41,612 nt of DNA from a virus: IMG/VR virus record IMGVR_UViG_3300021057_000019, positions 1 through 41,612 of that record; one strand, given 5' to 3'. Each line of letters begins with the position of its first letter. The first letter of the stretch is position 1. Positions 29,537 to 41,612 of the stretch are shown here, piece after piece. A model generated the notes under the pieces. It saw only the letters and a program-made list of their open reading frames with translations. It searched no databases and was not told the origin of the DNA. Position numbers and translations under genes: made by a program.

Positions 29537-30253
29537 TCAGTTCAGGACTTCGCAGACGCCGTCAATGACGTTGTGCAAGTCCCGTGTGAGCTGCGGCTTC
29601 TCAGCGACCTTCCCCGCGAGGGCAAAGGTCGCGGCGTTGAACAACCGCCAAGCAGTCCGAGAACCCCAGTCGTGCGGCGGTTCGTCGAAGGCTTTGAGAA
29701 CGTGGCCGATGCCCTGCACGCCGATTACGTCCTTGCGGTACATGGACATGATGGCGTGGTCGGCCTGCGCGTCGGTGAGTGCCGTGCTCTGGTAGGTCAG
29801 CAGGCGTTGGTTCTGCGCAAGCCGTTGCTGTCCGAGGGGCTGGATGATGTCAGCCAAGAGTGCTGGGAGTTCACGCTTCGCCCGCACCGTGTGCTTCCGC
29901 CTGATAACATGGTCGGCGGAAAAGGCGAGGTTGTCGCAGACGAAGACCCGTGAGCCAAAGGCAATGCCGATGGGCAGGCTCTTGTCGTGCGAGTTTCGCA
30001 AGCCCAGCATGTCCGTGTACTCCCCGTAGGGAGAGCGCAGACACAGAACGCCGAAGTAGCGTGCGCCGTCTTCTGTGATGGCGTGGTGCTCCTCAGCAAT
30101 CTCGTGCTGGTGAAAGCCGAGCGTGAAGCGCATGAGCTCCACAATCTCGTGGTGCGGGACGGGGACGTGGGTCTCCGTGGCGATCGGGACGGGGACAGCT
30201 CGAAGAGCGTCATACGAAACGGGGTTGGCCCCCGCGTGCAACATTAAGGTCAT
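29537..30253 (-). CDS. DUF932 phage/plasmid-type protein
   Basis: 238 residues. RYFGVLCLRSPYGEYTDMLG, then LRNSHDKSLPIGIAFGSRVF and VCDNLAFSADHVIRRKH match DUF932 (PF06067), a family found on phages and plasmids with unknown function, suspected to bind DNA or regulate. Good Shine-Dalgarno (AGGAGG) 6 bases before ATG 30253. It follows a zinc microprotein gene. Confidence 0.85.
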   Translation of the reverse strand: MTLMLHAGANPVSYDALRAVPVPIATETHVPVPHHEIVELMRFTLGFHQHEIAEEHHAITEDGARYFGVLCLRSPYGEYTDMLGLRNSHDKSLPIGIAFGSRVFVCDNLAFSADHVIRRKHTVRAKRELPALLADIIQPLGQQRLAQNQRLLTYQSTALTDAQADHAIMSMYRKDVIGVQGIGHVLKAFDEPPHDWGSRTAWRLFNAATFALAGKVAEKPQLTRDLHNVIDGVCEVLN

Positions 30254-30261
30254 GTAGCCTC

Positions 30262-30435
30262 CTAGTCAGCGTCTATGGGTTCGTCGGTGTCGTATCGCTC
30301 CATGATGTCTGGCCTAAAGCCTTTCATCTTGCGCGCCTCGCACTTGTCGCAGACGAGGCACATGTAGATGCCGTGCCCGTCGTAGAGAGCACGGGGGCGT
30401 TCCTGCGAACCGCAGGGACAGAATTTGAGGGGCAT
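30262..30435 (-). CDS. Small zinc-binding microprotein
   Basis: 57 residues: FCPCGSQERPRALYDGHG then CLVCDKC, giving five Cys that suit a zinc site. The acidic tail follows. It ends 8 bases before the DUF932 start. Confidence 0.6.
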   Translation of the reverse strand: MPLKFCPCGSQERPRALYDGHGIYMCLVCDKCEARKMKGFRPDIMERYDTDEPIDAD

Positions 30436-30437
30436 GG

Positions 30438-30656
30438 TCAGCTCCTCAAAGCATCAAGTTGCTCGAAGGCGCTTCTTGCGTCCTGCAGATTGCTGTAGGC
30501 GAGCGCAACGTGCTCCTTCAGCTTTGCAGGGTCGTTGTGGTACGCCTCCAGCGCGTCGATGTCTGCGCTGAGGCAATCGCAAGCGTGCAGACCTTCACTA
30601 ACAATCCGTGAGGCCATCGGCGCACGCCCGAACAGGCGGCGAAAGAAGTCTTTCAT
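30438..30656 (-). CDS. Small helical protein, unknown
   Basis: 72 residues: MKDFFRRLFGRAPMASR, CDCL, then helix HNDPAKLKEHVALAYSNLQD. Start ATG 30656 with a GGAGAG-like site a few bases upstream. First gene of the DUF932 operon. No function recognised. Confidence 0.6.
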   Translation of the reverse strand: MKDFFRRLFGRAPMASRIVSEGLHACDCLSADIDALEAYHNDPAKLKEHVALAYSNLQDARSAFEQLDALRS

Positions 30657-30711
30657 GCGAACTCTCCTGATGAAGAACGTTCGCTCCTAATTTTAACATG
30701 CAAAAGGGAAA

Positions 30712-30727
30712 CCCCACCGAAGTGGGG
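30712..30727 (-). terminator. Terminator between Cys-rich operon and DUF932 operon
   Basis: CCCCAC (30712-30717) and GTGGGG (30722-30727) with a CGAA loop. Leftward it is followed by TTTCCCTTTTGC. It should stop transcripts from the 31160-33309 region. Confidence 0.75.
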
Positions 30728-30998
30728 CTGGCTTGCGTATTGCCGTTGGAGTGTCCACTGCGCCGACTTTAACGGCGTACAGGACAAGGCTCGATGACCC
30801 CGCTGCTGCGCTCTGCTTGCACAGAGTGTTGGTCAGCAAACGTCTAGATGGGAGCGGCGCAAGCCGAGTTTAGATGCGGCGTGGGTGCTGCGGTTTGATG
30901 AGGAGCGGCGGGCTCCAGTTTATGGGGCGTATTGCTTTTGGTTTTGTACGGCCGCTACTAACTCTAGCATGCGTCCAACAATATGCATTGTGCGACGC
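30728..30998. other. Non-coding stretch with several hairpins
   Basis: No supported gene. Hairpins: GTCC/GGAC with an inner GCGCCG/CGGCGT at 30752-30784, and CTCTG/CAGAG at about 30810-30830. It may be a structured RNA, the 3' end of the leftward operon, or an origin. A rightward frame at 30885 is judged to be a shadow of the Cys-rich gene. Confidence 0.45.
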
Positions 30999-31160
30999 TT
31001 AAACGTGGCACTTGCACTGGGGCCAATGGCATACCCCGCACCATTTTGGCCCGTCGCATTTGCAGTAGTTACAGCACTTCGGCTCAAGCTTGATTGTCAC
31101 CTTGTAGTCTACGTCTTTGAACAGGTCTTTGTAGACCTTTATGAATTTAGGCAGCTTCAT
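30999..31160 (-). CDS. Cys-rich microprotein
   Basis: 53 residues with nine Cys and two His: CCNYCKCDG, WCGVCHW, CKCH. Two zinc sites or one cluster are possible. ATGA overlap with the gene upstream. Confidence 0.65.
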   Translation of the reverse strand: MKLPKFIKVYKDLFKDVDYKVTIKLEPKCCNYCKCDGPKWCGVCHWPQCKCHV

Positions 31161-31510
31161 CTCTTCGTATTGAATTTACCATAACGTTCAGGTCTGGAGA
31201 TAAAGTCCTCCTTCGCGGGTTCTGGTGAACTTCGTGGCACCAGCCTGAAATGTCGCTCTGTTTTCTCTTCGACTATTGAGGGAGTAACCTCGAATGTTTC
31301 GTCGGGGCGAAGGTTTAGATACTCAATCAAGGCCCACACATGTTCTTTTACGCCGCGTGGCATCGGCATAGAGCCACCATAAAGGATGGCTTCGCTTTCA
31401 AGCTCTTTCACTCTTTTCCGCAGTTCCTCAAGCTGTCGAAACTGCTCATCCAGCCTGAAGTCTGTTGCAAGTTTGTCTATGCCCAACCAGCGTTTGAAAA
31501 GTCTTTTCAT
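31157..31510 (-). CDS. Coiled-coil protein, unknown
   Basis: 117 residues from ATG 31510, chosen by ATGA overlap. Basic start (MKRLFKRWLGIDKLATDFRL), a coiled coil (DEQFRQLEELRKRVKELESE), and a charged C-terminal part with HFRLVPRSSPEPAKE. No known family. Confidence 0.65.
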   Translation of the reverse strand: MKRLFKRWLGIDKLATDFRLDEQFRQLEELRKRVKELESEAILYGGSMPMPRGVKEHVWALIEYLNLRPDETFEVTPSIVEEKTERHFRLVPRSSPEPAKEDFISRPERYGKFNTKR

Positions 31511-31806
31511 ACGCAAGTACAGGCACCACCGCCTAAATCACAATTAGAGCAAATCGCTCGACCTTGGACACGCGCTACGCAAACTACGCATCCACTCCCG
31601 TGAATACACTCACGCTGCTGCTCCAGCAGAGCGCCCGAGAGGCGTCCCTTGAAAGCAATTACCAGCCTGTTCTCTGCTTGCGTCAGTCGCTTAAGCAGCG
31701 TCATTTCGGCATAGGAACTGTCGTAAATCGCTCTGTCCGCAAATTCTTGTTGGAGAATATCGTGGACAGCCCCTCTGAATGTCTCTTCGTAGTCTGCAAT
31801 TCTCAT
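31507..31806 (-). CDS. Cys-rich small protein, unknown
   Basis: 99 residues. Helical first half (DYEETFRGAVHDILQQEFAD), then a C-terminal region with nine Cys/His candidates (CIHGSGCVVCV, ICSNCDL, GACTC). Overlaps the coiled-coil gene by ATGA. Confidence 0.65.
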   Translation of the reverse strand: MRIADYEETFRGAVHDILQQEFADRAIYDSSYAEMTLLKRLTQAENRLVIAFKGRLSGALLEQQRECIHGSGCVVCVARVQGRAICSNCDLGGGACTCV

Positions 31807-31844
31807 AGTTGGTCAATACGTCGCACAACACAGATTGTGAGACG

Positions 31845-32039
31845 TTAGTTAGTGATAGTGATGATGCACGGCCTTACTTCGTAAGTGGCGTCAGCAAACG
31901 GCACACGGCAAAAGGCCTTTGCGTCGGCCTCAGAAGTGTAGACCTGATAAATCGAGCCGCCACCCAACATTTCGGGCGCACTCGTGTAAGGGATGTCTTC
32001 TGTGCCCTTCAAAACAATAGCCCAAGCTTCTTGCTGCAT
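31845..32039 (-). CDS. Small protein, unknown
   Basis: 64 residues from ATG 32039: MQQEAWAIVLKGTEDIPYTS, then GGGSIYQVYTSEADAKAFCR. This small alpha/beta pattern with 'YTSEADAKAF' resembles phage proteins of unknown role that clamp or modulate host enzymes; nothing more specific can be said. Confidence 0.6.
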   Translation of the reverse strand: MQQEAWAIVLKGTEDIPYTSAPEMLGGGSIYQVYTSEADAKAFCRVPFADATYEVRPCIITITN

Positions 32040-32055
32040 ATTCTTCCGCTTGAAC

Positions 32056-32273
32056 GTGCGCCCGCTAGTACAGGCGCACACTCAAACGCACTAGCTAATA
32101 TGCTCTCAGTATAGCTCGGGATTGGAATTTCACCTGACGAGCTGGGGATAGCGAAGCGTGGCTCAACAGAGCCATATTCTGCGACTGGTTGCCCCACGTT
32201 CACGATGTCTCCTCGCGTTCTCTTCCTGCTCACACCACTACAGCCGATGCTCACTCTCGAAAGGAGAGGAGCG
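32056..32273. promoter_or_regulatory. Divergent intergenic region with hairpins
   Basis: GTGCGCC (32056-32062) and GGCGCAC (32073-32079) form a perfect stem, and GGCTC/GAGCC form another near 32160-32173. The leftward gene at 32039 and the rightward gene at 32274 diverge here, so their promoters must lie between. The stem shares an ACTAGCGGG core with the inverted repeat at 39482-39529. Confidence 0.5.
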
Positions 32274-32486
32274 ATGTTCAAAGAACTGTTCGATTACCTA
32301 ACGCCTGAACGCTACCAGTCTTCCATCTGCATCAACGGCTGCTCGTATGAAGTCCCCCACAGCCGCAGTTTGTTTGAGAGAGAAAACGGCTGGTGTTTCA
32401 AGTGCAAAACCAAAACCGTGCGGCCGATTGCCGTGTTGTGCGAGGAGGTCTTAGATGGCATTCATCCGCGAACGCAAAATCGGTGA
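32274..32486 (+). CDS. Small zinc-binding protein
   Basis: 70 residues from ATG 32274, preceded by a strong AAGGAGAGGAG site. MFKELFDYLTPERYQSSICI, then CINGCSYEVPHSRS and WCFKCKTK give four Cys and a His. The gene overlaps the following one by 32 bases. Confidence 0.65.
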   Translation: MFKELFDYLTPERYQSSICINGCSYEVPHSRSLFERENGWCFKCKTKTVRPIAVLCEEVLDGIHPRTQNR

Positions 32487-32739
32487 GCATGTGTACGTCT
32501 ACCGAGAGACGAGGTGGCGAGAGGGGAAGAAAGTGCGCTCTCGCTCGGACTACCTCGGCAGGCTGAATGACTGGCTGCACGACAACATCACGCCAGAGAA
32601 GGGAGAGTACATGGCGGAGAAGATGGCCAAGCAGTACGGGCCGAAAGAAAAGCCAGCCAGTGAAGCTGAGAAAGAAAAAGCCGCCCCTGAGGACGGCTCA
32701 AGCCCTGCGAAGAGCGACGACGTTCCGAGCGGAGACTAA
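32455..32739 (+). CDS. Small conserved protein with transposase-N-terminus-like pattern
   Basis: 94 residues, with GAGGAGGT before the ATG. The first half (MAFIRERKIGEHVYVYRETR, WREGKKVRSRSDYLGRLNDW) resembles the N-terminal strand module of IS1634-type transposases, which also occurs alone as a small protein. The second half is Lys/Glu-rich. There is no catalytic part and no inverted repeats, so it is not a working transposase. Its end overlaps the convergent primase-like gene by 42 bases. Confidence 0.65.
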   Translation: MAFIRERKIGEHVYVYRETRWREGKKVRSRSDYLGRLNDWLHDNITPEKGEYMAEKMAKQYGPKEKPASEAEKEKAAPEDGSSPAKSDDVPSGD

Positions 32740-33309
32740 CCACTGCGGCGGGAGCGAGAGCTGGCCAACGAAAGAAACGTAGCCGCTCGTGCTCCCGTCC
32801 GGATTTCGCAGGCAGAAGTAGACCTTCTTGCGCTGCGGGTGGAAGCCCACACCTAGCCTGGCCGCGTCCTCCTCCGAGATGCCCAGCTCCTTCACCTCCT
32901 CAGAGTAGACGAGCTTCGCCGCGAACTTCTGCGGGTCGAATGGGGCGGGTTGTTTCCCGCCCTCGGTCTTCTGTGGAGCTGTGGCACGGCTCTTGCTAAT
33001 CAGTACAGTATCCCTATCGGGTACTGTTTCCGTGCCGAGCTGGTTGGCGAGGTAGTGCGCGGCGTCGGCGTCCTTGACGCCCAAGACATGCGCCGCGAGG
33101 CCAATTACATCCCCGCCCTTCTTGGACGAGAAGCAGTAGTACAGCCCCTTTGAAGGGGTGAGCACTATGGCTCGGTCTCCGCCGCTCTGGCACTTGGGGC
33201 AGGCGGTGCGAAACTGAGAACCCTCCTGCTTGAGCGTGAGCCCAAGCAGCTCGGCGGCTTGGTCGATTGGCAAGGCCGCTTTCAACTCATTGAAGTCGAT
33301 ATAGGGCAC
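32698..33309 (-). CDS. Primase-like protein: CHC2-type zinc domain without TOPRIM
   Basis: 203 residues. Residues 3-75 look like the CHC2 zinc domain of DNA primases: DFNELKAALPIDQAAELLGL, FRTACPKCQSGGDRAIVLTP, YYCFSSKKGGDVIGLAA. Cys37, Cys40 and Cys59 are seen but the usual fourth ligand position is Ser. The C-terminal part (PQRKKVYFCLRNPDGSTSGY) resembles the start of the primase catalytic core, but no TOPRIM domain follows. It might load or regulate a host primase, or bind DNA only. It could also be a worn-down primase. Confidence 0.75.
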   Translation of the reverse strand: MPYIDFNELKAALPIDQAAELLGLTLKQEGSQFRTACPKCQSGGDRAIVLTPSKGLYYCFSSKKGGDVIGLAAHVLGVKDADAAHYLANQLGTETVPDRDTVLISKSRATAPQKTEGGKQPAPFDPQKFAAKLVYSEEVKELGISEEDAARLGVGFHPQRKKVYFCLRNPDGSTSGYVSFVGQLSLPPQWLVSARNVVALRRA

Positions 33310-33355
33310 GACATCCTCCTCTGGGGATAAGAGCCACTAGGATAATTTTACCACG

Positions 33356-33361
33356 TATAAT
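33356..33361 (+). promoter_or_regulatory. Candidate -10 box for gene at 33394
   Basis: A consensus TATAAT 33 bases before the start codon. A -35 box is not clear. Confidence 0.5.
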
Positions 33362-33393
33362 GAAGGTGGACTGCAACCCCAAAGGAGGACGTC

Positions 33394-33573
33394 ATGGCCA
33401 ACAAACGGCCCGACTACCACGTTTTCGTCTCACGCGAAGGTGGCGACAGGCAGACGTATTACACCCGCATCGGCGCGGCGTGGAACGTCGCCAAGGACGG
33501 CATCTCTATCCAGCTCGACGCGCTGCCCGTCGATGGCAAGCTCGTGCTGTTTCCGCCGAAGGACGGCGACTAA
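33394..33573 (+). CDS. Small conserved plasmid/phage protein
   Basis: 59 residues. It reads MANKRPDYHVFVSREGGDRQ, then TRIGAAWNVAKDGISIQLDA and LPVDGKLVLFPP. I recall this compact beta family from plasmids, integrative elements and phages of proteobacteria; no function is known. Strong AAGGAGG site before the ATG. Confidence 0.75.
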   Translation: MANKRPDYHVFVSREGGDRQTYYTRIGAAWNVAKDGISIQLDALPVDGKLVLFPPKDGD

Positions 33574-33592
33574 GCCCCTCCCCAAGCCTCCC

Positions 33593-33625
33593 GCCTCTCG
33601 CTATCCTGCGAGGGGCATTTTTATT
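33593..33625 (+). terminator. Strong rho-independent terminator
   Basis: GCCTCTCGC (33593-33601) pairs with GCGAGGGGC (33608-33616) with one G-T pair, loop TATCCT, followed by ATTTTTATT. Confidence 0.85.
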
Positions 33626-33630
33626 GGGGC

Positions 33631-34350
33631 GTGCGTATGTGGTGGGAGTTGGTGCAGATTTTTGTTGGCTTCGGTGGCGCGTTGGTGGTGGGGTATCTCA
33701 TCTGGAAACGCAAGCTGCTTCCGAAGAGCTGGCTTGAACTGCACGAGGCAGAATTTCCTTATCGCAAGGGGTACGTCAGTTTCAGTTTCAAAGTCTTGTC
33801 AGCAGTCTTCCTACTCCTGTGCCTGTTTGTTTGGTGGGGCACATGGTGGATGGAAATCTCAGCAACAGTGATGGTGCTTCTGGCCGCGCTCGGCGGCGTG
33901 GTAGCTGGCCTTGTTTTGGAGGCGGGGCAACGGGCGGGGGCATCTCGCATCCGGCTCAAAGAGTTCTTAAAAGAAGAACCGTTTGCGGGAAGCCAACTCG
34001 TCCACCTATTCGCTGATAACAGCAAGCGGGAGATTTACACCACACCAACGGGAGAGAGCTATCCTGTGGGGCCGTACTGCATCGCCTTGTCGAGAGCGGC
34101 AACGCTGCCTGCGGACTACAAGTGGAACTATGGAGGCGAGTTTTACGTCCGTCCCTCGGATGTAAATATGGACGCCTTGCGAGAGTGGGGTTCAATCCTG
34201 TTTCAGCCTGAGAAGGAAACCCCCGTTGCTCAACCGATGGCATATGCGGCTGAAGCACCGCAAGCTCCCTATGAAGCCCCCAAAGAGCGCACACTGAGTG
34301 AAAAGGTGTTAGACCGAATTTACAAAAGAAAGCCCCCCGAAGGGGGCTAG
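33631..34350 (+). CDS. Three-helix membrane protein with cytoplasmic domain
   Basis: 239 residues. Transmembrane helices at about residues 5-25 (WELVQIFVGFGGALVVGYLI), 53-70 (FKVLSAVFLLLCLFVWWG) and 73-97 (MEISATVMVLLAALGGVVAG), followed by a 140-residue soluble domain (KEFLKEEPFAGSQLVHLFAD, later GEFYVRPSDVNMDALREW). No family recognised. It comes after the terminator of the small gene and its last codons lie inside the terminator of the convergent operon. It might be a membrane partner of the VirD4-like ATPase, but it is on the other strand. Confidence 0.65.
   Translation: MRMWWELVQIFVGFGGALVVGYLIWKRKLLPKSWLELHEAEFPYRKGYVSFSFKVLSAVFLLLCLFVWWGTWWMEISATVMVLLAALGGVVAGLVLEAGQRAGASRIRLKEFLKEEPFAGSQLVHLFADNSKREIYTTPTGESYPVGPYCIALSRAATLPADYKWNYGGEFYVRPSDVNMDALREWGSILFQPEKETPVAQPMAYAAEAPQAPYEAPKERTLSEKVLDRIYKRKPPEGG
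34331..34348 (-). terminator. Terminator of mobilisation operon, overlapping two stop codons
   Basis: AGCCCCC (34331-34337) pairs with GGGGGCT (34342-34348). Read leftward it is followed by TTCTTTTGTAAA. The palindrome CTAG at 34347-34350 supplies the TAG stop on both strands, so the end of both operons is packed into 20 bases. Confidence 0.8.
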
Positions 34351-34472
34351 AACCAGTGCTTGAGGACGTATTCGAGTTTCTTGCGACCTTCGGGAGACAG
34401 TCTTTCGAGGAGGGTGAGGAAGAGGTCTACGAGGTACTCGTCCTCACGTCTCGGTTTCCACGCCCGTCTCAT
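34347..34472 (-). CDS. Small helical protein in mobilisation operon
   Basis: 41 residues: MRRAWKPRREDEYLVDLFLT, then LLERLSPEGRKKLEYVL. Overlaps the gene upstream (34444-34593). Last gene of the operon, ending at the shared CTAG. No function recognised. Confidence 0.6.
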   Translation of the reverse strand: MRRAWKPRREDEYLVDLFLTLLERLSPEGRKKLEYVLKHWF

Positions 34473-34593
34473 TGCTCTCTCCCTTGGGGGGACGGCCGCG
34501 CCTGGCCTCGCCAAAGATTTTCTCGAGTTCGGCTTCGGCTTCCTTGATTTTCTTAACCTGCTCGTACACGCGCTCGGCTTTGTCGTTCTTCAT
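34444..34593 (-). CDS. Small coiled-coil protein in mobilisation operon
   Basis: 49 residues from ATG 34593: MKNDKAERVYEQVKKIKEAE, then a basic AT-hook-like stretch (ARRGRPPKGES). Overlaps neighbours on both sides. The RGRP motif suggests DNA binding. Confidence 0.6.
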   Translation of the reverse strand: MKNDKAERVYEQVKKIKEAEAELEKIFGEARRGRPPKGESNETGVETET

Positions 34594-35467
34594 AGGCACT
34601 CTCCAATGTGCGGAAGATGTTGAACCCGTCCAACCAATCCTCCTCGGCCATGTGGCCTGTCGGCGGTGGAAAGGCATCTTTGAAGTCGGGTATTGCTTTG
34701 ACGTGGAAGTGCTCTGCTACATCTTTTGCCTCCTGTTCTATAACTGCCTGAATGCCCTGCGCCCGTGAATGGGAGAGGGTGATGAAAAGAATTGAGATAC
34801 GTCCTAAGCCATAGCGTTTTGAGTAAATCTTCTTCCGCAGGTACTCGGCGTAGTGGCGAACCTTCAGAGAAATATTCTGGCGGTCGAACTGGGACGTAAG
34901 AGGCTCGGTGCCTCGGTCAGCCTCGAAGCCGTGAAAATGAATAGAAGTCCCGTCCAGCTCGTAGCCGAACAGCGGCCCATCGGGAATTATCTTGCTCGTG
35001 CTCAAGGGGACGTGCGCGGGGTTCGCGTCGTCCTTCGTCGGCTTCCACGGGCTGCGAGAGATAATCTCGTCCTGGGTCTTGTAGCGGTACTTAGGATTGG
35101 CGTGGCGGAATGACCACTCAATCACAGAGGCCATGTGCTTGTGGCGGAAGTGGCCAGTAGATTTCTCGCGGCCTCGCCACATCTCGTGCTTGGCCAAGAG
35201 CGCTTCACCCTTCGGCCGGATTTCATAAATGGTCGGGCGGTAGCGGGCGTTGATGTGGTGCTTGGCTTCCTCAGGAACGCCGATATAGCCCTCCTGATTG
35301 AGAAGGTTGACGACCTTCTGCGTGTAGGTGTTCGGAAGAGAAGCCCTAATGTAGTTAGCGGGCAGGCAGTCGTACTGTTGAAGCAAGTCCAACACGGCGA
35401 GCTGGTGCTTCGAGCCGTGGACAGGTTGACCCTTGCTGGTAGGAAAAAATCGGGAGCGTCGCTTCAT
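34553..35467 (-). CDS. Replication-relaxation family protein (Replic_Relax, MobC-like)
   Basis: 304 residues. Residues 20-90 form a winged helix (HQLAVLDLLQQYDCLPANYI, YTQKVVNLLNQEGYIGVPEE). Residues 150-260 carry the core of Pfam Replic_Relax (PF13814): IIPDGPLFGYELDG, FEADRGTEPLTSQ and RKKIYSKRYGLGRISILFIT. PDG, the E of FEADRG and a downstream Lys could be a nuclease-like site. The family is found on plasmids and integrative elements next to VirD4-type ATPases and is thought to act at the transfer or replication origin. AAGGAGG lies only one base before the ATG, closer than usual. Confidence 0.8.
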   Translation of the reverse strand: MKRRSRFFPTSKGQPVHGSKHQLAVLDLLQQYDCLPANYIRASLPNTYTQKVVNLLNQEGYIGVPEEAKHHINARYRPTIYEIRPKGEALLAKHEMWRGREKSTGHFRHKHMASVIEWSFRHANPKYRYKTQDEIISRSPWKPTKDDANPAHVPLSTSKIIPDGPLFGYELDGTSIHFHGFEADRGTEPLTSQFDRQNISLKVRHYAEYLRKKIYSKRYGLGRISILFITLSHSRAQGIQAVIEQEAKDVAEHFHVKAIPDFKDAFPPPTGHMAEEDWLDGFNIFRTLESAYEERQSRARVRAG

Positions 35468-35530
35468 ACCTCCTTGTAAAGAAAGTGCGTAGAGCGGTCG
35501 AAGGCCGCCATGTGTCTAAGTGTACCACGG

Positions 35531-37609
35531 CTATACGTGGTGTTCCGTGATGTTCACTTCGGGGTCTTTCTTCTGGTCGCCGTACTTCTCAAAAATCAGC
35601 TGCCGCAGTTCGTGATACTGCGCGTTGGTCATCTGCGGAAAGTCGCGCTCCCAATCCAGCTTTTTGAATGGAACGGTTCTCACTCGCGGACGGTCAGGCG
35701 GGCCGGTCTCGATGCGGGCTGGTTCGGGGATGGGCGTGCCGTCGTCCAGTTCTCGTGAGGTGCAGTAAGACCTAATAAACACGTCGTGTTGCAGAGAGTG
35801 TTTGGTCTGGGGATTGAGTATCTGCCCGTCGTTGTGATGGGCCACCGTCAGACACACCCGTTTGTTTCTGGCTTTGACCAACATTGAAGCGAAACGGGCG
35901 TCGGTTTTGATGTAGTCGTGCGCCTCGTCTATCACGACAAACACATGCTTCAGACTTCGCTCGGAGTGTGCCCCTCGGCGGTCAACCAGCTTGGAGAGAA
36001 AGGCAATGAAGAGCCGTCCGAACACCTCAGCCCCCTTCGGGGAGAACTTAGACTGGTCGGCGTCAATGAACAGCACTTTGCCCCCATTGTGCAATTCGGA
36101 GATGAGGTTGAGATTGCAGGTCGAGGCATTGAGCATCCGGTGAAGTGCTCGGTTGTTCGTGAGGGCCATGAGGCGGTTCAAAATGGCGTTGCTGGTTTGG
36201 GGCGCGACGTTGTTGAAAGCCACGTCAAAGTAATAGCGGGTGTCGGCGTCGAGCTGGCCGTACAACTCAGGAAAAGGATACTGGCGGCGCTTGGTAGCTT
36301 GGGGTTTGAAAAACTCCTTGAGCACTTCGAGCGAGGCGTCGGGGTGATAGGCGGCCCCACGGATAATCCAGCCGAGCGCATCGGTCATAATGTCGGTCGA
36401 ACCGTCCTCAGTCATTCCTGAGAGGGCGTAGGTCAGAATGTCAGCCCCCGTGGAGATGTCGCGCTCCCCTTTCTCGTTCTTGATTTGAAAAGGATTGAGA
36501 GCGAGGGCGTAATTGGGGTCGGCGTCAGCGATGATGATGTTCTCGTAAAGGGGATGGTCTTTAGCGAAGATTTCAAGATGGGGAATTTGTCTCGCAAGTC
36601 TTTGGCTGTCTAACACTACGATACTTGCCTTGCCTTCTGCTACTTTCGGAAGGTCGTGGAGGATGTAGTGGCTGAGATAGGTCGTCTTCCCTGAGCCTGG
36701 GGCTCCTAAGGCTCTGTGATGCTGGGTTCTGGCTTGGTCGGTCAGTCCCCACGGCACGTCAACCCAAAAGAGCGGCTGCAACATGGGGTGCAGATACAGG
36801 GTCGGAACGTCCTGCTCACCTTCATAGTGAGAAGGGTAAATGAGTTCTCCCTTGCCGCCCATTTCCATCCATGCGCTCTTGGCTCCCTCTAAGGCGTGAA
36901 CGGCGGCGGGGTTTTTGAAGCCGAGGCGCATGAACGGGACGATAATTTCTGACGCCAAACTCTTCACGTCCACCACGTCAGTGATGGGTATTTCAAACTG
37001 GTGCGCTTCGGGTGACTTGGGAAACTGCCGCAGGTACGGCATGAACGCGCGCACAAAGGCATCAGCGTACTTTTCATCACCATAAGCGGCTGCAAAATCT
37101 GCAAACGGCTGGTACTTCATTTGCAGTTCGGTGAGCGTGTCGGGGTGGTCGGCTGTCGGGGGTGGGAGCTCTGTGTTGGGAATGGTGTGCTCGTAGATGA
37201 ATTTGGTGGCGCGAAGCATCAGCTCCCAAATGTTTTCAGGGACGAAGAGTTGGGCGCGATTTACAGCTTCCTCAAGCCGAAGCCGCACTAGGTCGGTGAA
37301 ATCCAGTGAAGAAAGATACTGACGGTTAGCTCTCTCATAGAGACGCTGTGTGCGGTCGATGTTCTCACGAAGCATTCTCGCATCAAACGCTCGGCTCTCC
37401 TCAAGCCTGCGCTCGTGCTCCTGTTTCTCAGCTTCCTTTTTGTGAAGATTGTTCGTCCAGACCACGAAGCCTATAAACGCCGCTATCACTACAGCAATGA
37501 GAATGAGAAATGCGACGACGATGAAGAAACTAGCTATGCTCTCGTGGTTGCGCTCCCAAACCACGAGGCCGACAAGAAAGGCAATGATGAGGCCAACGAG
37601 AACGTGCAC
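35531..37609 (-). CDS. VirD4/HerA-like membrane ATPase (coupling protein type)
   Basis: 692 residues. Two transmembrane helices at about residues 2-17 and 27-51, then a linker and a beta domain, Walker A GAPGSGKTT at 302-310, a strand with SIVVLDSQRLARQ near 335, and Walker B HVFVVIDEAHDY at 555-566, followed by the sensor-like ARNKRVCLTVAHHNDGQ. This is the architecture of type IV coupling proteins (VirD4/TraD) and related HerA ATPases, which pump DNA or protein-bound DNA through the membrane. In a phage genome it suggests a mobilisation function. Confidence 0.88.
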   Translation of the reverse strand: MHVLVGLIIAFLVGLVVWERNHESIASFFIVVAFLILIAVVIAAFIGFVVWTNNLHKKEAEKQEHERRLEESRAFDARMLRENIDRTQRLYERANRQYLSSLDFTDLVRLRLEEAVNRAQLFVPENIWELMLRATKFIYEHTIPNTELPPPTADHPDTLTELQMKYQPFADFAAAYGDEKYADAFVRAFMPYLRQFPKSPEAHQFEIPITDVVDVKSLASEIIVPFMRLGFKNPAAVHALEGAKSAWMEMGGKGELIYPSHYEGEQDVPTLYLHPMLQPLFWVDVPWGLTDQARTQHHRALGAPGSGKTTYLSHYILHDLPKVAEGKASIVVLDSQRLARQIPHLEIFAKDHPLYENIIIADADPNYALALNPFQIKNEKGERDISTGADILTYALSGMTEDGSTDIMTDALGWIIRGAAYHPDASLEVLKEFFKPQATKRRQYPFPELYGQLDADTRYYFDVAFNNVAPQTSNAILNRLMALTNNRALHRMLNASTCNLNLISELHNGGKVLFIDADQSKFSPKGAEVFGRLFIAFLSKLVDRRGAHSERSLKHVFVVIDEAHDYIKTDARFASMLVKARNKRVCLTVAHHNDGQILNPQTKHSLQHDVFIRSYCTSRELDDGTPIPEPARIETGPPDRPRVRTVPFKKLDWERDFPQMTNAQYHELRQLIFEKYGDQKKDPEVNITEHHV

Positions 37610-38437
37610 CTACTCCCCCAGCTCGAAGTTGTCGCCCGTTTGCTGGTAGAGATTACGCGGTTCGGTGTGTTTCGTGTAGATGATTAGTTCCTCCGCATCC
37701 CGCCTGGATGTCCTATAAATGCGCTTGTCCTTAATGGTTAGCAGGGCGTCCTTGAGCGTGTCCGATACGTCGGAGAGGTTGCGTAGCCCTACGGTGAGCC
37801 GTTCCTGCCAAACCAGTGAAGTGTGAAAGTCCCGCAGATGATACCCTCCATCAAGGACAATGACGTGTCGTTTAACTTGTCCGATAAGCAAAACGGAGAA
37901 GAGTTTGCAGAGGTAATCCCCCAGCTCCGCTCGGTTCAAGCGGGCTAACACTACACCCTTGAAGGAAAAGTTGGTGGGGTTGCACAGTACCCGTCTTGCG
38001 ATTGGTGAAAGCAGTAAATCGTCAACAGTCTCTTTGGCGTCATCGTAGCCTGAGTGCTTAATCGCGGGGAGCTTGTCGAGCCGCGAGGCTTCGAGAAACA
38101 TTCTGGTCAAGGCCCGCTTGCCGTTGCGGTAGGTCATCAAATCCTTGTCGGGGTACAGGGCCTCGGCAAATTCTCTGGCCCTAATGTCATCAATTCCCCT
38201 GAGGGGATTGAAGCTGTGCTGATGAACGTCAAAAACTTTTGCACGGGGGAAATGCTCTTCAAACAGTGAGGTGTCGTCGGCAATCAAAAGAAAGCTGGAC
38301 GGAGCGTTAGCGATTGCCTCACGGGTTTTGTCGGCGTGGCCGATTAGTAGCATGGGTGGTGCGGTTGTCGGTGAGTAGAGCCCGCCTCTTGTCAGGAAAT
38401 GCTCACGGGCCGCGCCACCGCTAAATGTGCAGTCCAC
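37610..38437 (-). CDS. P-loop-less ATPase-like partner of the VirD4-type protein
   Basis: 275 residues. A Rossmann-like start (PPMLLIGHADKTREAIANAP) and a Walker B-like strand (RHVIVLDGGYHLRDFH) are seen, with LNPLRG-type and LARLNRAELGDYL segments typical of ATPases of the TraG/HerA superfamily, but no GxGKT motif. It ends one base from the ATPase start, so the two likely act as a complex. The start is GTG 38437, just 5 bases after a TATAAT; a later internal start is possible. Confidence 0.65.
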   Translation of the reverse strand: MDCTFSGGAAREHFLTRGGLYSPTTAPPMLLIGHADKTREAIANAPSSFLLIADDTSLFEEHFPRAKVFDVHQHSFNPLRGIDDIRAREFAEALYPDKDLMTYRNGKRALTRMFLEASRLDKLPAIKHSGYDDAKETVDDLLLSPIARRVLCNPTNFSFKGVVLARLNRAELGDYLCKLFSVLLIGQVKRHVIVLDGGYHLRDFHTSLVWQERLTVGLRNLSDVSDTLKDALLTIKDKRIYRTSRRDAEELIIYTKHTEPRNLYQQTGDNFELGE

Positions 38438-38442
38438 TTGTA

Positions 38443-38448
38443 ATTATA
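38443..38448 (-). promoter_or_regulatory. Candidate -10 box, possible leaderless operon start
   Basis: TATAAT on the leftward strand lies 5 bases before the GTG at 38437. This is the likely promoter of the mobilisation operon. No clear -35 box is seen. Confidence 0.5.
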
Positions 38449-38479
38449 ACCTGTCCGCATCCTGTTCGTCTGGGGCGTA

Positions 38480-38613
38480 AGCCCCGACCCAATCCGCTGC
38501 GTCCCGCGTGTGTAGTGGTATACGGAGCACGTCGTGGTCGGCGGTAGCGTCGGGTTCGCAAAGTTTTGCGAGCACGCGCTATATAGACGAAGTCAGGGGA
38601 TTGGGTCGGGGCT
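38480..38613. repeat. 16-bp inverted repeat with internal hairpins (origin or oriT candidate)
   Basis: AGCCCCGACCCAATCC (38480-38495) is the exact inverse of 38598-38613. Inside are CGCGTG (38505-38510) with CACGCG (38574-38579), and the hairpin TCGCAAA (38556-38562) with TTTGCGA (38565-38571). Nested stems resemble a structured RNA or a transfer origin. The element lies about 40 bases upstream of the mobilisation operon. Confidence 0.7.
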
Positions 38614-38743
38614 GATAGGCCACGCGAACAGGTGCGGAAACGTAAGCGATAGCAACGTGAAAGCGGCAATAGCCGTCTTTGCAAGTGTCGCTACAAGGTA
38701 GAACAGCCGTAGCGATAGCACAGGCGTGTACCTAGAAAGAAAA
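38614..38743. other. Non-coding stretch upstream of mobilisation operon
   Basis: No gene seen. The motif GTAGCGATAGCA (38709-38720) recalls AAGCGATAGCA (38644-38654), a short direct repeat of 9 bases or more. Confidence 0.45.
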
Positions 38744-38775
38744 AGGCCGACAGAGTTTGCAACCTCCATCGGCCT
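38744..38775 (-). terminator. Terminator after AlpA-like gene
   Basis: AGGCCGA (38744-38750) pairs with TCGGCCT (38769-38775). Leftward it is followed by TTTTTCTTTC. It separates the AlpA-like gene from the mobilisation operon. Confidence 0.8.
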
Positions 38776-38802
38776 AATTTGAACCCCGCTAGGGGCATAC
38801 AC

Positions 38803-39006
38803 TTAAAAATAACTCGGAGCTGGAAGGTTGTTGACCCACGCTTCGATTTCATCCTCGTACCAGCAAATGCGCGAAGTACCTGGCTGTCGATGACACTGAG
38901 GAAACTTCATCGCCTTCATCAGTCGTCGGAGATGTACGCGGCAGTAGGTGATGTTCCACCTTTCTTTTAAGTCCGAGTAGTAGACCAACCTTCGGGATTT
39001 GTGCAT
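38803..39006 (-). CDS. AlpA-family excisionase/regulator
   Basis: 67 residues from ATG 39006, with AGAGG before it. YYSDLKERWNITYCRVHLRR, then FPQCHRQPGTSRICWYEDEI and EAWVNNL match the AlpA / MerR-type winged-helix family that often accompanies P4-type integrases and controls excision. It is in opposite direction to the integrase, near the GTGGGTAG repeats which could be its sites. Confidence 0.85.
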   Translation of the reverse strand: MHKSRRLVYYSDLKERWNITYCRVHLRRLMKAMKFPQCHRQPGTSRICWYEDEIEAWVNNLPAPSYF

Positions 39007-39136
39007 GGCGTCCTCTCGGAGCCTGTGCACAGTCTCTCTGGTTAGCCCACGGCGGAATGCCGTGAGTGCGGTGAATGTAGCGTGTAAGAGCACATGAGGG
39101 AAGGTTCGCCATGTACTCTCATGTTGCCTGTTAGGG

Positions 39137-39387
39137 AAGGTGGGTAGTGAAGGTGGGTAGCGGGTGTGCCGCTAGGCGAATTTGTGAGGAAGTGTAAGAG
39201 GTTATCTTCCTAGTTCGACGCGGCCCCTGGGCACCAGAGCTTTCTACCCACCCAAGTGTCCGTAGTTGGTTTCCCGTATTCCCCTGAGATGTTCTGCGAT
39301 GTGGCCTCATGTTCGCAGAAGCATGGGTAGAACATGGGTAGGAGCGTGGGTAGCGTTCTCATCTTGTCTGCGAGTGCTACCCACCTT
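39137..39387. repeat. Left array of GTGGGTAG iterons (7 copies)
   Basis: Copies at 39137-39147, 39150-39160, 39323-39330, 39334-39341 and 39346-39353 run rightward; 39244-39253 and 39377-39387 are inverted. Best consensus AAGGTGGGTAG. Neighbouring copies are 11-13 bases apart, about one turn of DNA. Likely binding sites for integrase or AlpA-like protein, or a replication iteron array. Confidence 0.85.
39221..39236. repeat. 16-bp direct repeat, copy 1
   Basis: CGGCCCCTGGGCACCA also occurs at 40508-40523, in the other iteron region 1287 bases away. The pair flanks the two unknown genes 39538 and 39895. It may be an attachment-site remnant or a shared control site. Confidence 0.75.
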
Positions 39388-39481
39388 TGTTCATCTTCGG
39401 GCGGTGGTTCGGTGCCCGGTGTCCACAGGTGCGGGCTTGCGCGTTTTCCAACCCGTGCTTGAATTAAAGTCTATTAGCTAG

Positions 39482-39529
39482 TCCGTTCGCGTCTGTGCCT
39501 TTGCGACTAGCGGGGCACAGGTTCGAACG
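39482..39529. repeat. Imperfect inverted repeat upstream of gene at 39538
   Basis: GTTCGCGTCTGTGCC and GGCACAGGTTCGAAC pair at 12 of 15 positions around a core with GACTAGCGGG. It ends 8-9 bases before the ATG, so it may be an operator or an RNA hairpin controlling translation. A T-arm-like GGTTCGAAC is seen but no tRNA can be folded. Confidence 0.55.
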
Positions 39530-39537
39530 TAAGAATC

Positions 39538-39873
39538 ATGAAAGATGAGAAGAGTGAGTTGCCGCCTCTGAAAGAGGCATACAAGTTAAGCGAAGAGAAC
39601 CAGCACATACTGGAGCGTTTTCGAGATGAGCTCCAGCGAAGGCTGGGAGTGTCGGTCGGCTTCGAGGTCTACAAAGAGAATTTCCTGACGTATCCATCCA
39701 TTCATGCAGATACGATTAAGGTTGAGGTCATGGTTGGTGGATGGAGACGTGTCGCTGTCATTACTGAAATCGAGCTAGATATTCAGGCTGGTGGTTCGTT
39801 CTATTACTTTTGCCGACGTATCGCGGACGACGTAATGAATGACATCCTCAAAATAGGAGCGGCTCGGGTATAA
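39538..39873 (+). CDS. Small protein, unknown, between iteron arrays
   Basis: 111 residues. Helical, charged first third (EENQHILERFRDELQRRLG), then strands (VSVGFEVYKENFLTYPSIHA, DTIKVEVMVGGW, VITEIELDIQ), and a C-terminal helix. An alpha/beta fold of unknown family. With the membrane protein in opposite direction it forms a small cassette between the repeats. Accessory function (for example immunity or defence) is only a guess. Confidence 0.65.
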   Translation: MKDEKSELPPLKEAYKLSEENQHILERFRDELQRRLGVSVGFEVYKENFLTYPSIHADTIKVEVMVGGWRRVAVITEIELDIQAGGSFYYFCRRIADDVMNDILKIGAARV

Positions 39874-39894
39874 AGGTTCGGGCGGTATTCGCGC

Positions 39895-40362
39895 CTACTT
39901 GAATTCTTCGGCCGCAAACTTTCTCAGTACATCGAGAATGTTCATCCGCTTTCTGCCGTATGAGTCATACGCTTCGATGTGGCCCTCGCGGAAATTGTGG
40001 TCGCCGTCGAGCCTTTTTTGTGCCGATTCAAATATCCACGACTCGAACTTGCCTGCCGCTAAATCCAATTCCTTCAGCTCGTCGTAGAACTCAGGAAAAT
40101 AGATTGCCGAAATCGCCAGTACTTTTGTGATCGGATTTACGCCCAGTTCCGCTTCCTTAGCGAAGATACGAATGCTGCGGGCTGTGTCCAACCAATGAGA
40201 ATGCTCATGGATAGCCGCAATCATCTCTTCAAACTTTTCTGCCCGCTTCTTCCGTTTCTCAGCGTTCTGCTTTCGAGTCTCCAAAAGCCAACCGCCAATG
40301 ACGGTGCCGAAGACACCTATCGCGCCACCAACAATTACCGGCCATAACGTTGCATCAGCCAT
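39895..40362 (-). CDS. Membrane-anchored protein with charged helical domain
   Basis: 155 residues from ATG 40362 (MADATLWPVIVGG) with GGGGG upstream; a longer start at 40407 is possible. One N-terminal transmembrane helix (LWPVIVGGAIGVFGTVIGGW) followed by a basic helix (ETRKQNAEKRKKRAEKFEEM) and a soluble helical domain. This layout is common for small proteins of unknown function found in mobile elements. No motif gives an activity. Confidence 0.65.
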   Translation of the reverse strand: MADATLWPVIVGGAIGVFGTVIGGWLLETRKQNAEKRKKRAEKFEEMIAAIHEHSHWLDTARSIRIFAKEAELGVNPITKVLAISAIYFPEFYDELKELDLAAGKFESWIFESAQKRLDGDHNFREGHIEAYDSYGRKRMNILDVLRKFAAEEFK

Positions 40363-40427
40363 GAGCGCCCCCGAATCTCTGGGCGCATAATACCGCTCCG
40401 TTGCCACATAATGGGACTTAGGGAACC

Positions 40428-40670
40428 GTGGGTAGGGAAGGTGGGTAGGCCGCGTGGTCGAACGCGAAAAACAAGCCGCTGCAAGTGCTTAGACGGTCAG
40501 ATACGGTCGGCCCCTGGGCACCACACAGCATAGAACATCGTGAGACTTGAAAGAACACCAGCGCACTTTTCGTTAAGTGCTGCAAAGCCTTGAACGCTGG
40601 GACGATGGCACGCCGTAAAACATCCGTGCCGTTGGTACGACTTTCCAAAGCTGGGTAGAATGGTGGGTAG
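40428..40670. repeat. Right array of GTGGGTAG iterons (4 copies)
   Basis: Copies at 40428-40435, 40438-40448, 40651-40658 and 40662-40670, all rightward, in two pairs with 11-13-base spacing. The last copy ends 29 bases before the integrase start, so integrase expression may be controlled by binding here. Confidence 0.85.
40508..40523. repeat. 16-bp direct repeat, copy 2
   Basis: Identical to 39221-39236. Both copies lie in non-coding DNA with iterons. Confidence 0.75.
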
Positions 40671-40699
40671 CTCGTTCTTCATCTCGGAGGCGCTTACCC

Positions 40700-41612
40700 A
40701 TGCTCACTCGACAAGAAGTCCTGCGGGCCGTCGCCAAAGAGAAGCCGTACAAGCTCTCGGATGGGAACGGTCTGTCGCTGCTCGTGATGCCCAGTGGCTC
40801 GAAGCTGTGGCGGTTCCGGTATCACTTCCACAACGTCGAAAAGATGCTCTCGCTCGGTTCCTATCCCGAAGTTGGGTTGGACGAGGCGAGGGAAAAGCGG
40901 GACGACGCGCGGAAAATACTGCGCGGCGGAAATGACCCAGCGGCCCAAAGGCAAGAGGAAAAGGTCAAGACCGCCACGGCGGGATTGTTCGCGGATGCGG
41001 CTGCAGAGTACCTGTCCAAGCTCGAAGCCGAAAGTGCTGCTGAGGCCACGATGGAAAAAAATCGGTGGCTCCTGCTCGACCTTGCCTCCCCGTTAGGGAA
41101 GCGTCCCCTGCGGGAAATTACGGCTGCTGAAATCCTCGGTGTCCTGAAAGGCATCGAGAAGAGCGGACGGCGGGACACGGCTAGACGGCTAAGAGGGGTG
41201 ATTGGTTCGGTCTTCCGCCACGCCATTGCAAACCTCAAAGTCGAGAACGACCCGACGTTTGCTCTGCGGGGCTCTCTGCTAAAGCCTGTGGTCAAACACC
41301 GTCCTGCCATCACTGACGAAGTGCAGTTTGGCAGGCTCATGGCGTCGATAGAGGCCTACGATGGGTGGCCCACCCTGAGAGCTGCGCTGCAAGTGTTGGC
41401 CCTTACGATGACCCGTCCTGTCGAGCTGCGGCTGATGAAGCGTAATGAAATCATCTGGCCGAAGGCGGTGTGGAGAGTGCCTGCTGAGAGGATGAAGATG
41501 CGGCGCGAGTTTGATGTGCCGCTCTCGAAGCAAGCCCTCGAAGCGCTGAGAGGGGTGTGGGAATTGTCGGAAGGGGGAGAGCTAGTGTTTCCCTCCATCC
41601 GTTCAAAATCCA
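40700..41612 (+). CDS. int: P4-type tyrosine integrase, N-terminal part (continues at 3)
   Basis: 304 codons with no stop before the end. The start ATG 40700 (MLTRQEVLRAVAKEK) is followed by the DUF4102-type arm-binding domain with YKLSDGNGLSLLVMPSGSKL and WRFRYHFHNVEKMLSLGSYP, a core-binding helical domain (residues 95-185), and the first catalytic arginine R239 in TMTRPVELRLM. Together with 3-413 it makes one complete 396-residue integrase. The arm-binding domain suggests that the nearby repeated sites are its arm sites. It is likely transcribed from the iteron-rich region just upstream. Confidence 0.95.
   Translation, partial: MLTRQEVLRAVAKEKPYKLSDGNGLSLLVMPSGSKLWRFRYHFHNVEKMLSLGSYPEVGLDEAREKRDDARKILRGGNDPAAQRQEEKVKTATAGLFADAAAEYLSKLEAESAAEATMEKNRWLLLDLASPLGKRPLREITAAEILGVLKGIEKSGRRDTARRLRGVIGSVFRHAIANLKVENDPTFALRGSLLKPVVKHRPAITDEVQFGRLMASIEAYDGWPTLRAALQVLALTMTRPVELRLMKRNEIIWPKAVWRVPAERMKMRREFDVPLSKQALEALRGVWELSEGGELVFPSIRSKS
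41478..41612. repeat. Right copy of terminal direct repeat
   Basis: Same sequence as 1-135 except for three bases (41483, 41485, 41486). See the left copy; only one copy belongs to the true molecule. Confidence 0.95.

Follow-up and report, generated by a model that had tools for sequence, protein, structure and literature searches.

What is a set of genes of the plasmid-mobilisation type doing in the genome of a tailed, integrating phage? The question is raised by IMG/VR record IMGVR_UViG_3300021057_000019, 41,612 nt in length (the whole stretch is referred to here as the window), in which three adjacent genes encode proteins that we call A, B and C, next to a large palindromic DNA site (Table 1). 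A first-pass annotation had described these genes as a leftward operon, which is correct (all three are on the minus strand), and had suggested that the phage might also be mobilised by conjugation. From the evidence set out below, it seems on balance probable that a relaxosome has been rebuilt into a phage-specific DNA-processing machine, made up of a MOBC nickase, a coupling ATPase, an inactive partner and a palindromic origin, and serving either a conjugative route or a relaxase-driven, membrane-tethered form of replication. More tentatively, we favour the narrower reading in which the operon serves as a nick-and-pump cassette of the MOBC type for DNA transfer, which would most likely mobilise the phage DNA via a borrowed channel and which would be standard equipment in temperate phages of a large group not yet described.

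Protein C had been placed in the Replic_Relax family, and the match to PF13814 (E 2.3e-7, 31.5 bits; gathering cut-off 25.3) bears this out. We used the replication-relaxation protein of pAM373, a plasmid typed as MOBC, as positive control, and it matches the same family with 27.1 bits. A published listing gives PF13814 as the MobC relaxase superfamily (PMC5357655), and enzymes of the MOBC class, which have no HUH motif, are kin to restriction endonucleases of the PD-(D/E)XK type (PMC12857230, PMC5714925). The earlier remark that no typical HUH relaxase could be seen is thus accounted for, since the active site of MOBC enzymes is of the restriction-endonuclease type. Among 26 aligned sequences (25 homologues of C and the pAM373 relaxase), H109 and D163 of C are invariant, and E182 is found in 25 of the 26; D163 and E182 align with D152 and E170 of the pAM373 protein, in which E172 follows E170 by two residues, just as D184 follows E182 in C (E-x-(D/E) spacing). 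We take these acidic positions to be those that are catalytic in pAD1 TraX. The AlphaFold model of C (predicted local distance difference test score, pLDDT, 86.9) matches winged helix-turn-helix domains of the MarR type over residues 14-99 (Z up to 10.3), and an N-terminal domain of this kind is also borne by TraX (PMC12857230). Past the winged helix, the order of helices and strands is compatible with a PD-(D/E)XK core, D163 lying just before a strand and E182 and D184 at the end of the next one, and the matches listed by Foldseek and VIA-align for the whole model are mainly to winged helices. C is, in our assessment of family match and model, a MOBC-family relaxase-like protein and a predicted nickase.

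For protein B, the description as a VirD4/HerA-like membrane ATPase with Walker motifs and two N-terminal helices proved sound: Walker A (GAPGSGKT) begins at residue 302 and Walker B (FVVIDEA) at residue 557, hydrophobic segments begin at residues 1 and 21 (these are kept in most, but not all, homologues), and all 23 B proteins have the P-loop. The window protein itself falls under every Pfam cut-off and so does not reach the curated family score; we call it coupling-protein-like rather than a filed member of the family, its predicted class being given by homologues and profiles. One homologue (L009) is above cut-off for TrwB_AAD_bind (7.1e-7) and T4SS-DNA_transf (1e-6), the profile built on B finds the coupling protein of pAM373, a conjugative plasmid, and the closest plasmid homologue is annotated as a type IV secretion system (T4SS) conjugative DNA transfer protein. 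Among solved structures, the top match of the B profile is a HerA-domain protein (2.3e-6). A scan of genomes with the B protein sequence alone gave no relatives, and B had no sequence match in the cultured-phage collection.

Protein A, noted at the outset as a paired ATPase-like protein without a P-loop, indeed answers to that description. The top Foldseek matches of its AlphaFold2 model (pLDDT 75.6) are VirB4 (4.1e-6) and TrwB (2.9e-5), and none of 21 A homologues has a P-loop. Because a TrwB/VirB4-like fold is combined with this uniform lack of the nucleotide-binding loop, A is probably a non-hydrolysing relative of the coupling ATPases. It matched nothing in Pfam, the cultured-phage collection or the plasmid collection.

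The nested inverted repeat that had been noticed at the start of the operon is the most structured 180-nt stretch in the molecule (DNA fold z about -10 to -10.9). It contains perfect 16-bp arms (outer ends at 38480 and 38613), imperfect outer arms of 39 nt (38461-38499 and 38594-38632, 79% complementary) and an inner 12-nt hairpin (38551-38576). When relatives were scanned upstream of the module, palindromes of like design with other arm sequences were found in most A-bearing phages. Nine of these palindromes could be aligned over a 15-pair inner stem in which 91% of cells are paired, a percentage favoured by the use of the window row as the alignment structure and by the choice of rows partly on their fold; when the stem was slid by one to three columns, pairing fell to 30-44%. 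In the same alignment, double changes, one on each side of a pair, were counted in 24 cells, where shuffles gave 7.3 (0 of 500 reaching the observed count), although the common ancestry of the rows also inflates such counts. Half-site profiles revealed more copies in four contigs (G008, G011, G014 and G018), and no copy either in 17 control loci of terminase relatives or in the records that have B and C without A. The site lies just upstream of A in the window, roughly 1-2.5 kb downstream of it in G008 and G018 (in which A is apart from B-C, the site nevertheless staying within about 2.5 kb of A) and about 9 kb upstream in G011; in a copy from Bauldia it adjoins the integrase gene. This variable position relative to A leads us to favour a cis-acting DNA site over a leader RNA or operator of gene A, although an RNA role may apply in those cases where it is upstream of A. 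Rfam gave no match over positions 30001-41612. As for the suggestion that the repeat may be an origin of transfer (oriT), a conserved, covarying palindrome is present just where oriT was proposed, and it stands as a candidate site only.

Further long palindromes, mostly with a CGAC core and missed by the half-site profiles, occur near A in L039 (8842-9013), L044 (11885-12025), L046 (9847-9985), L051 (5791-5980) and L038 (9190-9392); all five are likely to be diverged copies of the site. A search of viral contigs for the exact inverted-repeat pattern returned only the known relative and a coding stretch in an unrelated phage family, the latter a coincidence.

How widespread is the arrangement? 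An A profile found 20 viral contigs of 26-51 kb, and a separate scan added the copy in a Bauldia metagenome-assembled genome (MAG). In 18 of the 20 contigs, B and C profiles also matched, with B followed by C on the same strand and no internal stops; the Bauldia copy likewise has both, so that, the window counted, 20 of the 22 A-bearing contigs have all three proteins. The two others are G012 and G024, and in G024 the contig edge is probably responsible, as its match to protein D (a zinc-finger protein encoded downstream of C) begins at base 951. The head genes of the bearers are varied (Mu-type and P23-45-type portals, capsid E, GpA and Terminase_3 types). In contrast, B was absent from 12 records found through the terminase of the window phage (27-67% identical), although the same B profile matched 21 of 23 records elsewhere, and the loci of these 12 had none of A, B and C. 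Given both the varied head genes and the terminase relatives that lack it, the cassette seems to travel between phage backbones. The gene order that the first-pass annotation had wished to see elsewhere is therefore found in many related phages, if not in the terminase relatives, and C fell into no unrelated family.

B and C were also found without A, in two plasmids (Sulfitobacter mediterraneus unnamed1 and Methylomagnum ishizawai pRS11DPr5), in the viral records G002 and G005 and in a fragment, G003. Replication initiators of its own are annotated on the Methylomagnum plasmid, for which B-C is thus no obvious replicon. G002 has three genes for VirD4/TrwB-like ATPases (L005 4540-5880 and 9232-11307; G002 31227-32384), two integrases and a terminase match, and may be another mosaic of phage and mobile element.

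What might such a cassette do? In the reading that we tentatively favour, C, perhaps with A, would recognise and nick the palindrome once the phage DNA has been excised as a circle, and a membrane ring of B, with A as non-hydrolysing partner, would drive the nicked strand into a channel provided by the secretion system of a co-resident conjugative element, as for CloDF13; the outcome would be a second, virion-free route for phage DNA from cell to cell. Our preference for mobilisation is based on the B-C arrangement, which is that of CloDF13, on the membrane helices of B and on the presence of B-C on a plasmid with initiators of its own. The phage has a coupling-type protein and a MOBC-type relaxase-like protein of its own and no recognisable secretion channel, as in a MOBC1-type mobilisable element of the CloDF13 kind. 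Several points weigh on the other side. VirB4 (PF03135), by which a conjugative element would be recognised, was found in none of 26 records, the Bauldia MAG included, although the profile matches in a control genome. The nuclease fold of the C-terminal domain of C was not confirmed by Foldseek, the match to the restriction enzyme Bse634I being non-significant (E 0.84), and the match of the C profile to the pAM373 relaxase is weak and mostly over the winged helix. The bind site of pAD1 TraX consists of direct repeats away from nic, to which the palindrome here bears no resemblance (PMC12857230). Moreover, the near-constant pairing of B-C with A, found only in phages, points to a function central to the phage more than to a transfer route that it could do without, and nicking, oriT function and transfer are all predicted activities. 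Of the first-pass interpretation, the presence of plasmid-type mobilisation proteins in a true phage is supported by their families (PF13814/MOBC and VirD4/TrwB class), by the conserved candidate catalytic residues and by the covarying site at the suggested oriT; conjugative mobilisation itself stays a prediction.

A role in replication is possible too, and we consider it nearly as likely. Here, A-B-C-D would be a phage replication or DNA-processing module in which C nicks the palindrome for rolling-circle or strand-displacement replication, with no conjugation involved; the palindrome might double as a single-strand origin, D might act in priming, and A-B might move or tether DNA. No replication initiator, helicase or polymerase of known family was recognised outside the module among the 57 open reading frames (ORFs) of the window that were scanned (for PHROG, among the best 25 of 42 families), and five relatives with differing head genes show none either among their 25 best-supported Pfam families. 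The module lies at the early, integrase end; nearly every A-bearing phage has the cassette, and 20 of the 24 tested records have a protein of the D family (CHC2, a primase-type zinc finger). A and the palindrome were phage-specific in the searches made, and terminase relatives without B show other early genes, e.g. Prim-Pol and CHC2/Toprim. The absence of helicases was dropped as a discriminator, as DnaB and AAA_25 are missing from relatives without A-B-C as well as from those with it. Against replication, B-C is present on a plasmid with annotated Rep proteins, and we know of no replication initiation that needs a membrane-anchored, coupling-type ATPase. Two other explanations appear improbable. 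A HerA-nuclease-type complex (an ATPase ring with a nuclease) for defence or superinfection exclusion is brought to mind by the match of B to PADLOC mad8 (5.8e-7) and by its HerA-domain structural match, but A and C match no PADLOC component, so that no HerA-nuclease or MADS system is made up, and C belongs with the MOBC family; defence genes are, besides, usually sporadic in distribution, whereas this module is near-constant in A-bearing phages and tied to a covarying DNA site. Just as doubtful is a module for prophage or episome maintenance or segregation, as proposed for ATPase and Replic_Relax pairs in Bacillus phages: T4SS-type or FtsK-like ATPases are paired with Replic_Relax proteins near ParM in tyroviruses (PMC9703825), and such pairs occur with a gene for a ribbon-helix-helix (RHH) protein in Novomoskovsk and Bolokhovo (PMC9658697). 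However, integrases in 18 of 24 records tested indicate that most of the phages considered here probably integrate, and family scans of the window ORFs revealed no ParA, ParM or RHH family.

In all likelihood, the molecule that carries the cassette is circular, closed at about 41.5 kb, and a complete phage genome, although IMG/VR classes it as linear. Comparison of the whole window with itself showed 126-bp identical ends (10-135 and 41487-41612), and the integrase gene, split over the two ends, becomes a single intact frame across the join; it is on these two features that we base the circle. The end-repeat test probably missed the circularity on account of nine stray bases at the 5' tip. A caveat is that assembly can create an end repeat of about k-mer length. 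With a large terminase (TerL) match of 6.4e-33 and an integrase on the same molecule, this is a tailed temperate phage. Families found among the ORFs were large and small terminases, an SU10-type adaptor, tail fibre, ERF, NinG, HNH, SET, DUF932, excisionase, integrase, CHC2 zinc finger and Replic_Relax, and none was a secretion-system gene. The 'full' head-tail module of the first-pass annotation is thus borne out for terminases, adaptor and tail fibre, together with the integrase, and rests otherwise on gene order, most structural genes having no family match; the two tiny proteins assigned to the operon have ORFs as described.

Table 1. Coordinates of the module and its neighbours in the window
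Feature	Position	Strand	Basis or remark
Palindromic cis-acting DNA site; candidate oriT, replication origin or single-strand origin	38446..38646	-	Between excisionase and A; fold, covariation
Protein A, 275 aa; coupling-protein/VirB4-like RecA-fold, P-loop-less (predicted pseudo-ATPase), phage-specific partner	37610..38437	-	Model fold and homologues
Protein B, 692 aa; VirD4/TrwB/HerA-class membrane-anchored DNA-pump ATPase, coupling-protein-like	35531..37609	-	Motifs, homologue and profile matches
Protein C, 304 aa; PF13814 Replic_Relax, MOBC-type relaxase-like	34553..35467	-	PF13814; winged helix about 15-99; candidate catalytic H109, D163, E182, D184
Small ORF overlapping 3' end of C	34444..34677	-	ORF list
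Small ORF, 55 aa	34347..34514	-	ORF list
Protein D, 203 aa; CHC2 (DnaG-type) zinc finger, downstream of C	32698..33309	-	PF01807 3.8e-8
Excisionase/AlpA-like regulator	38803..39093	-	phrog_2790 2.3e-9; upstream of palindromic site
Tyrosine integrase, 396 aa	40700..41612, then 136 to about 412 past circle join	+	Read-through frame, family match

The excisionase and integrase genes adjoin the module, so that in the prophage it would lie at the integration end. The second strongest palindrome of the molecule (1285-1380), with perfect 18-bp arms CTTCGACCCCTTCCGCCC, is near the 3' end of the integrase gene on the circle. One ORF has a SET-domain match (3.9e-6), which is unusual for a phage of this size.

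The pairing of a type IV coupling protein with Replic_Relax is already known from Bacillus phages; what appears to be new is the partner A, the site with its covariation and the sharing of the cassette. No report of a P-loop-less partner, of a covarying palindrome or of a cassette common to many integrating phages was found in the open-licence literature. The cassette is present in about 20 contigs, mostly uncultured (at least 19 phages besides that of the window, with unrelated head genes), and existing annotation would overlook it, as A and B are unmatched in the cultured-phage collection. If it mobilises DNA, temperate phages would have a second, virion-free means of spread, with a bearing on the passage of phage genes over host barriers, and the boundary between phage and mobilisable element would be blurred; if it replicates DNA, it would represent a phage replication system based on a relaxase. 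In both cases, the palindrome, the acidic residues and the inactive ATPase partner are concrete targets for direct tests.

Among known systems, CloDF13 is a mobilisable plasmid that encodes its own coupling protein (PMC7431656). Its mobB-mobC (MOBC1) cassette, like that described here, combines a VirD4-type ATPase having N-terminal membrane helices with a MOBC relaxase and has no channel of its own; unlike CloDF13, the bearer here is a tailed phage that integrates, it adds the P-loop-less A and a long palindrome that covaries, and its mobilisation is a prediction. Neither B nor C had a profile match in the CloDF13 record, in which the long frame of that region seems to be frameshifted; the record was therefore unsuitable as a sequence control. 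The TraX-type relaxases of pAD1 and pAM373, which go with a TraG-like coupling protein, share with C the PF13814 family, an N-terminal winged helix, a D-x(about 18)-E-x-(E/D) motif and a conserved H, whereas the pAM373 gene sits among conjugation genes and the sequence similarity is only remote. Coupling- or FtsK-like ATPases and Replic_Relax proteins are known from Bacillus phages (tyroviruses, Novomoskovsk and Bolokhovo), which in this respect resemble the window phage but for which the sections consulted of the two reports mention neither an A-like partner nor a conserved palindrome (PMC9703825, PMC9658697). The Sulfitobacter and Methylomagnum plasmids have clear homologues of B and C, but differ from the window phage in having no A, no palindrome of this type and no terminase match. 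Finally, P1-like phage-plasmids can become mobilisable plasmids (PMC10879196).

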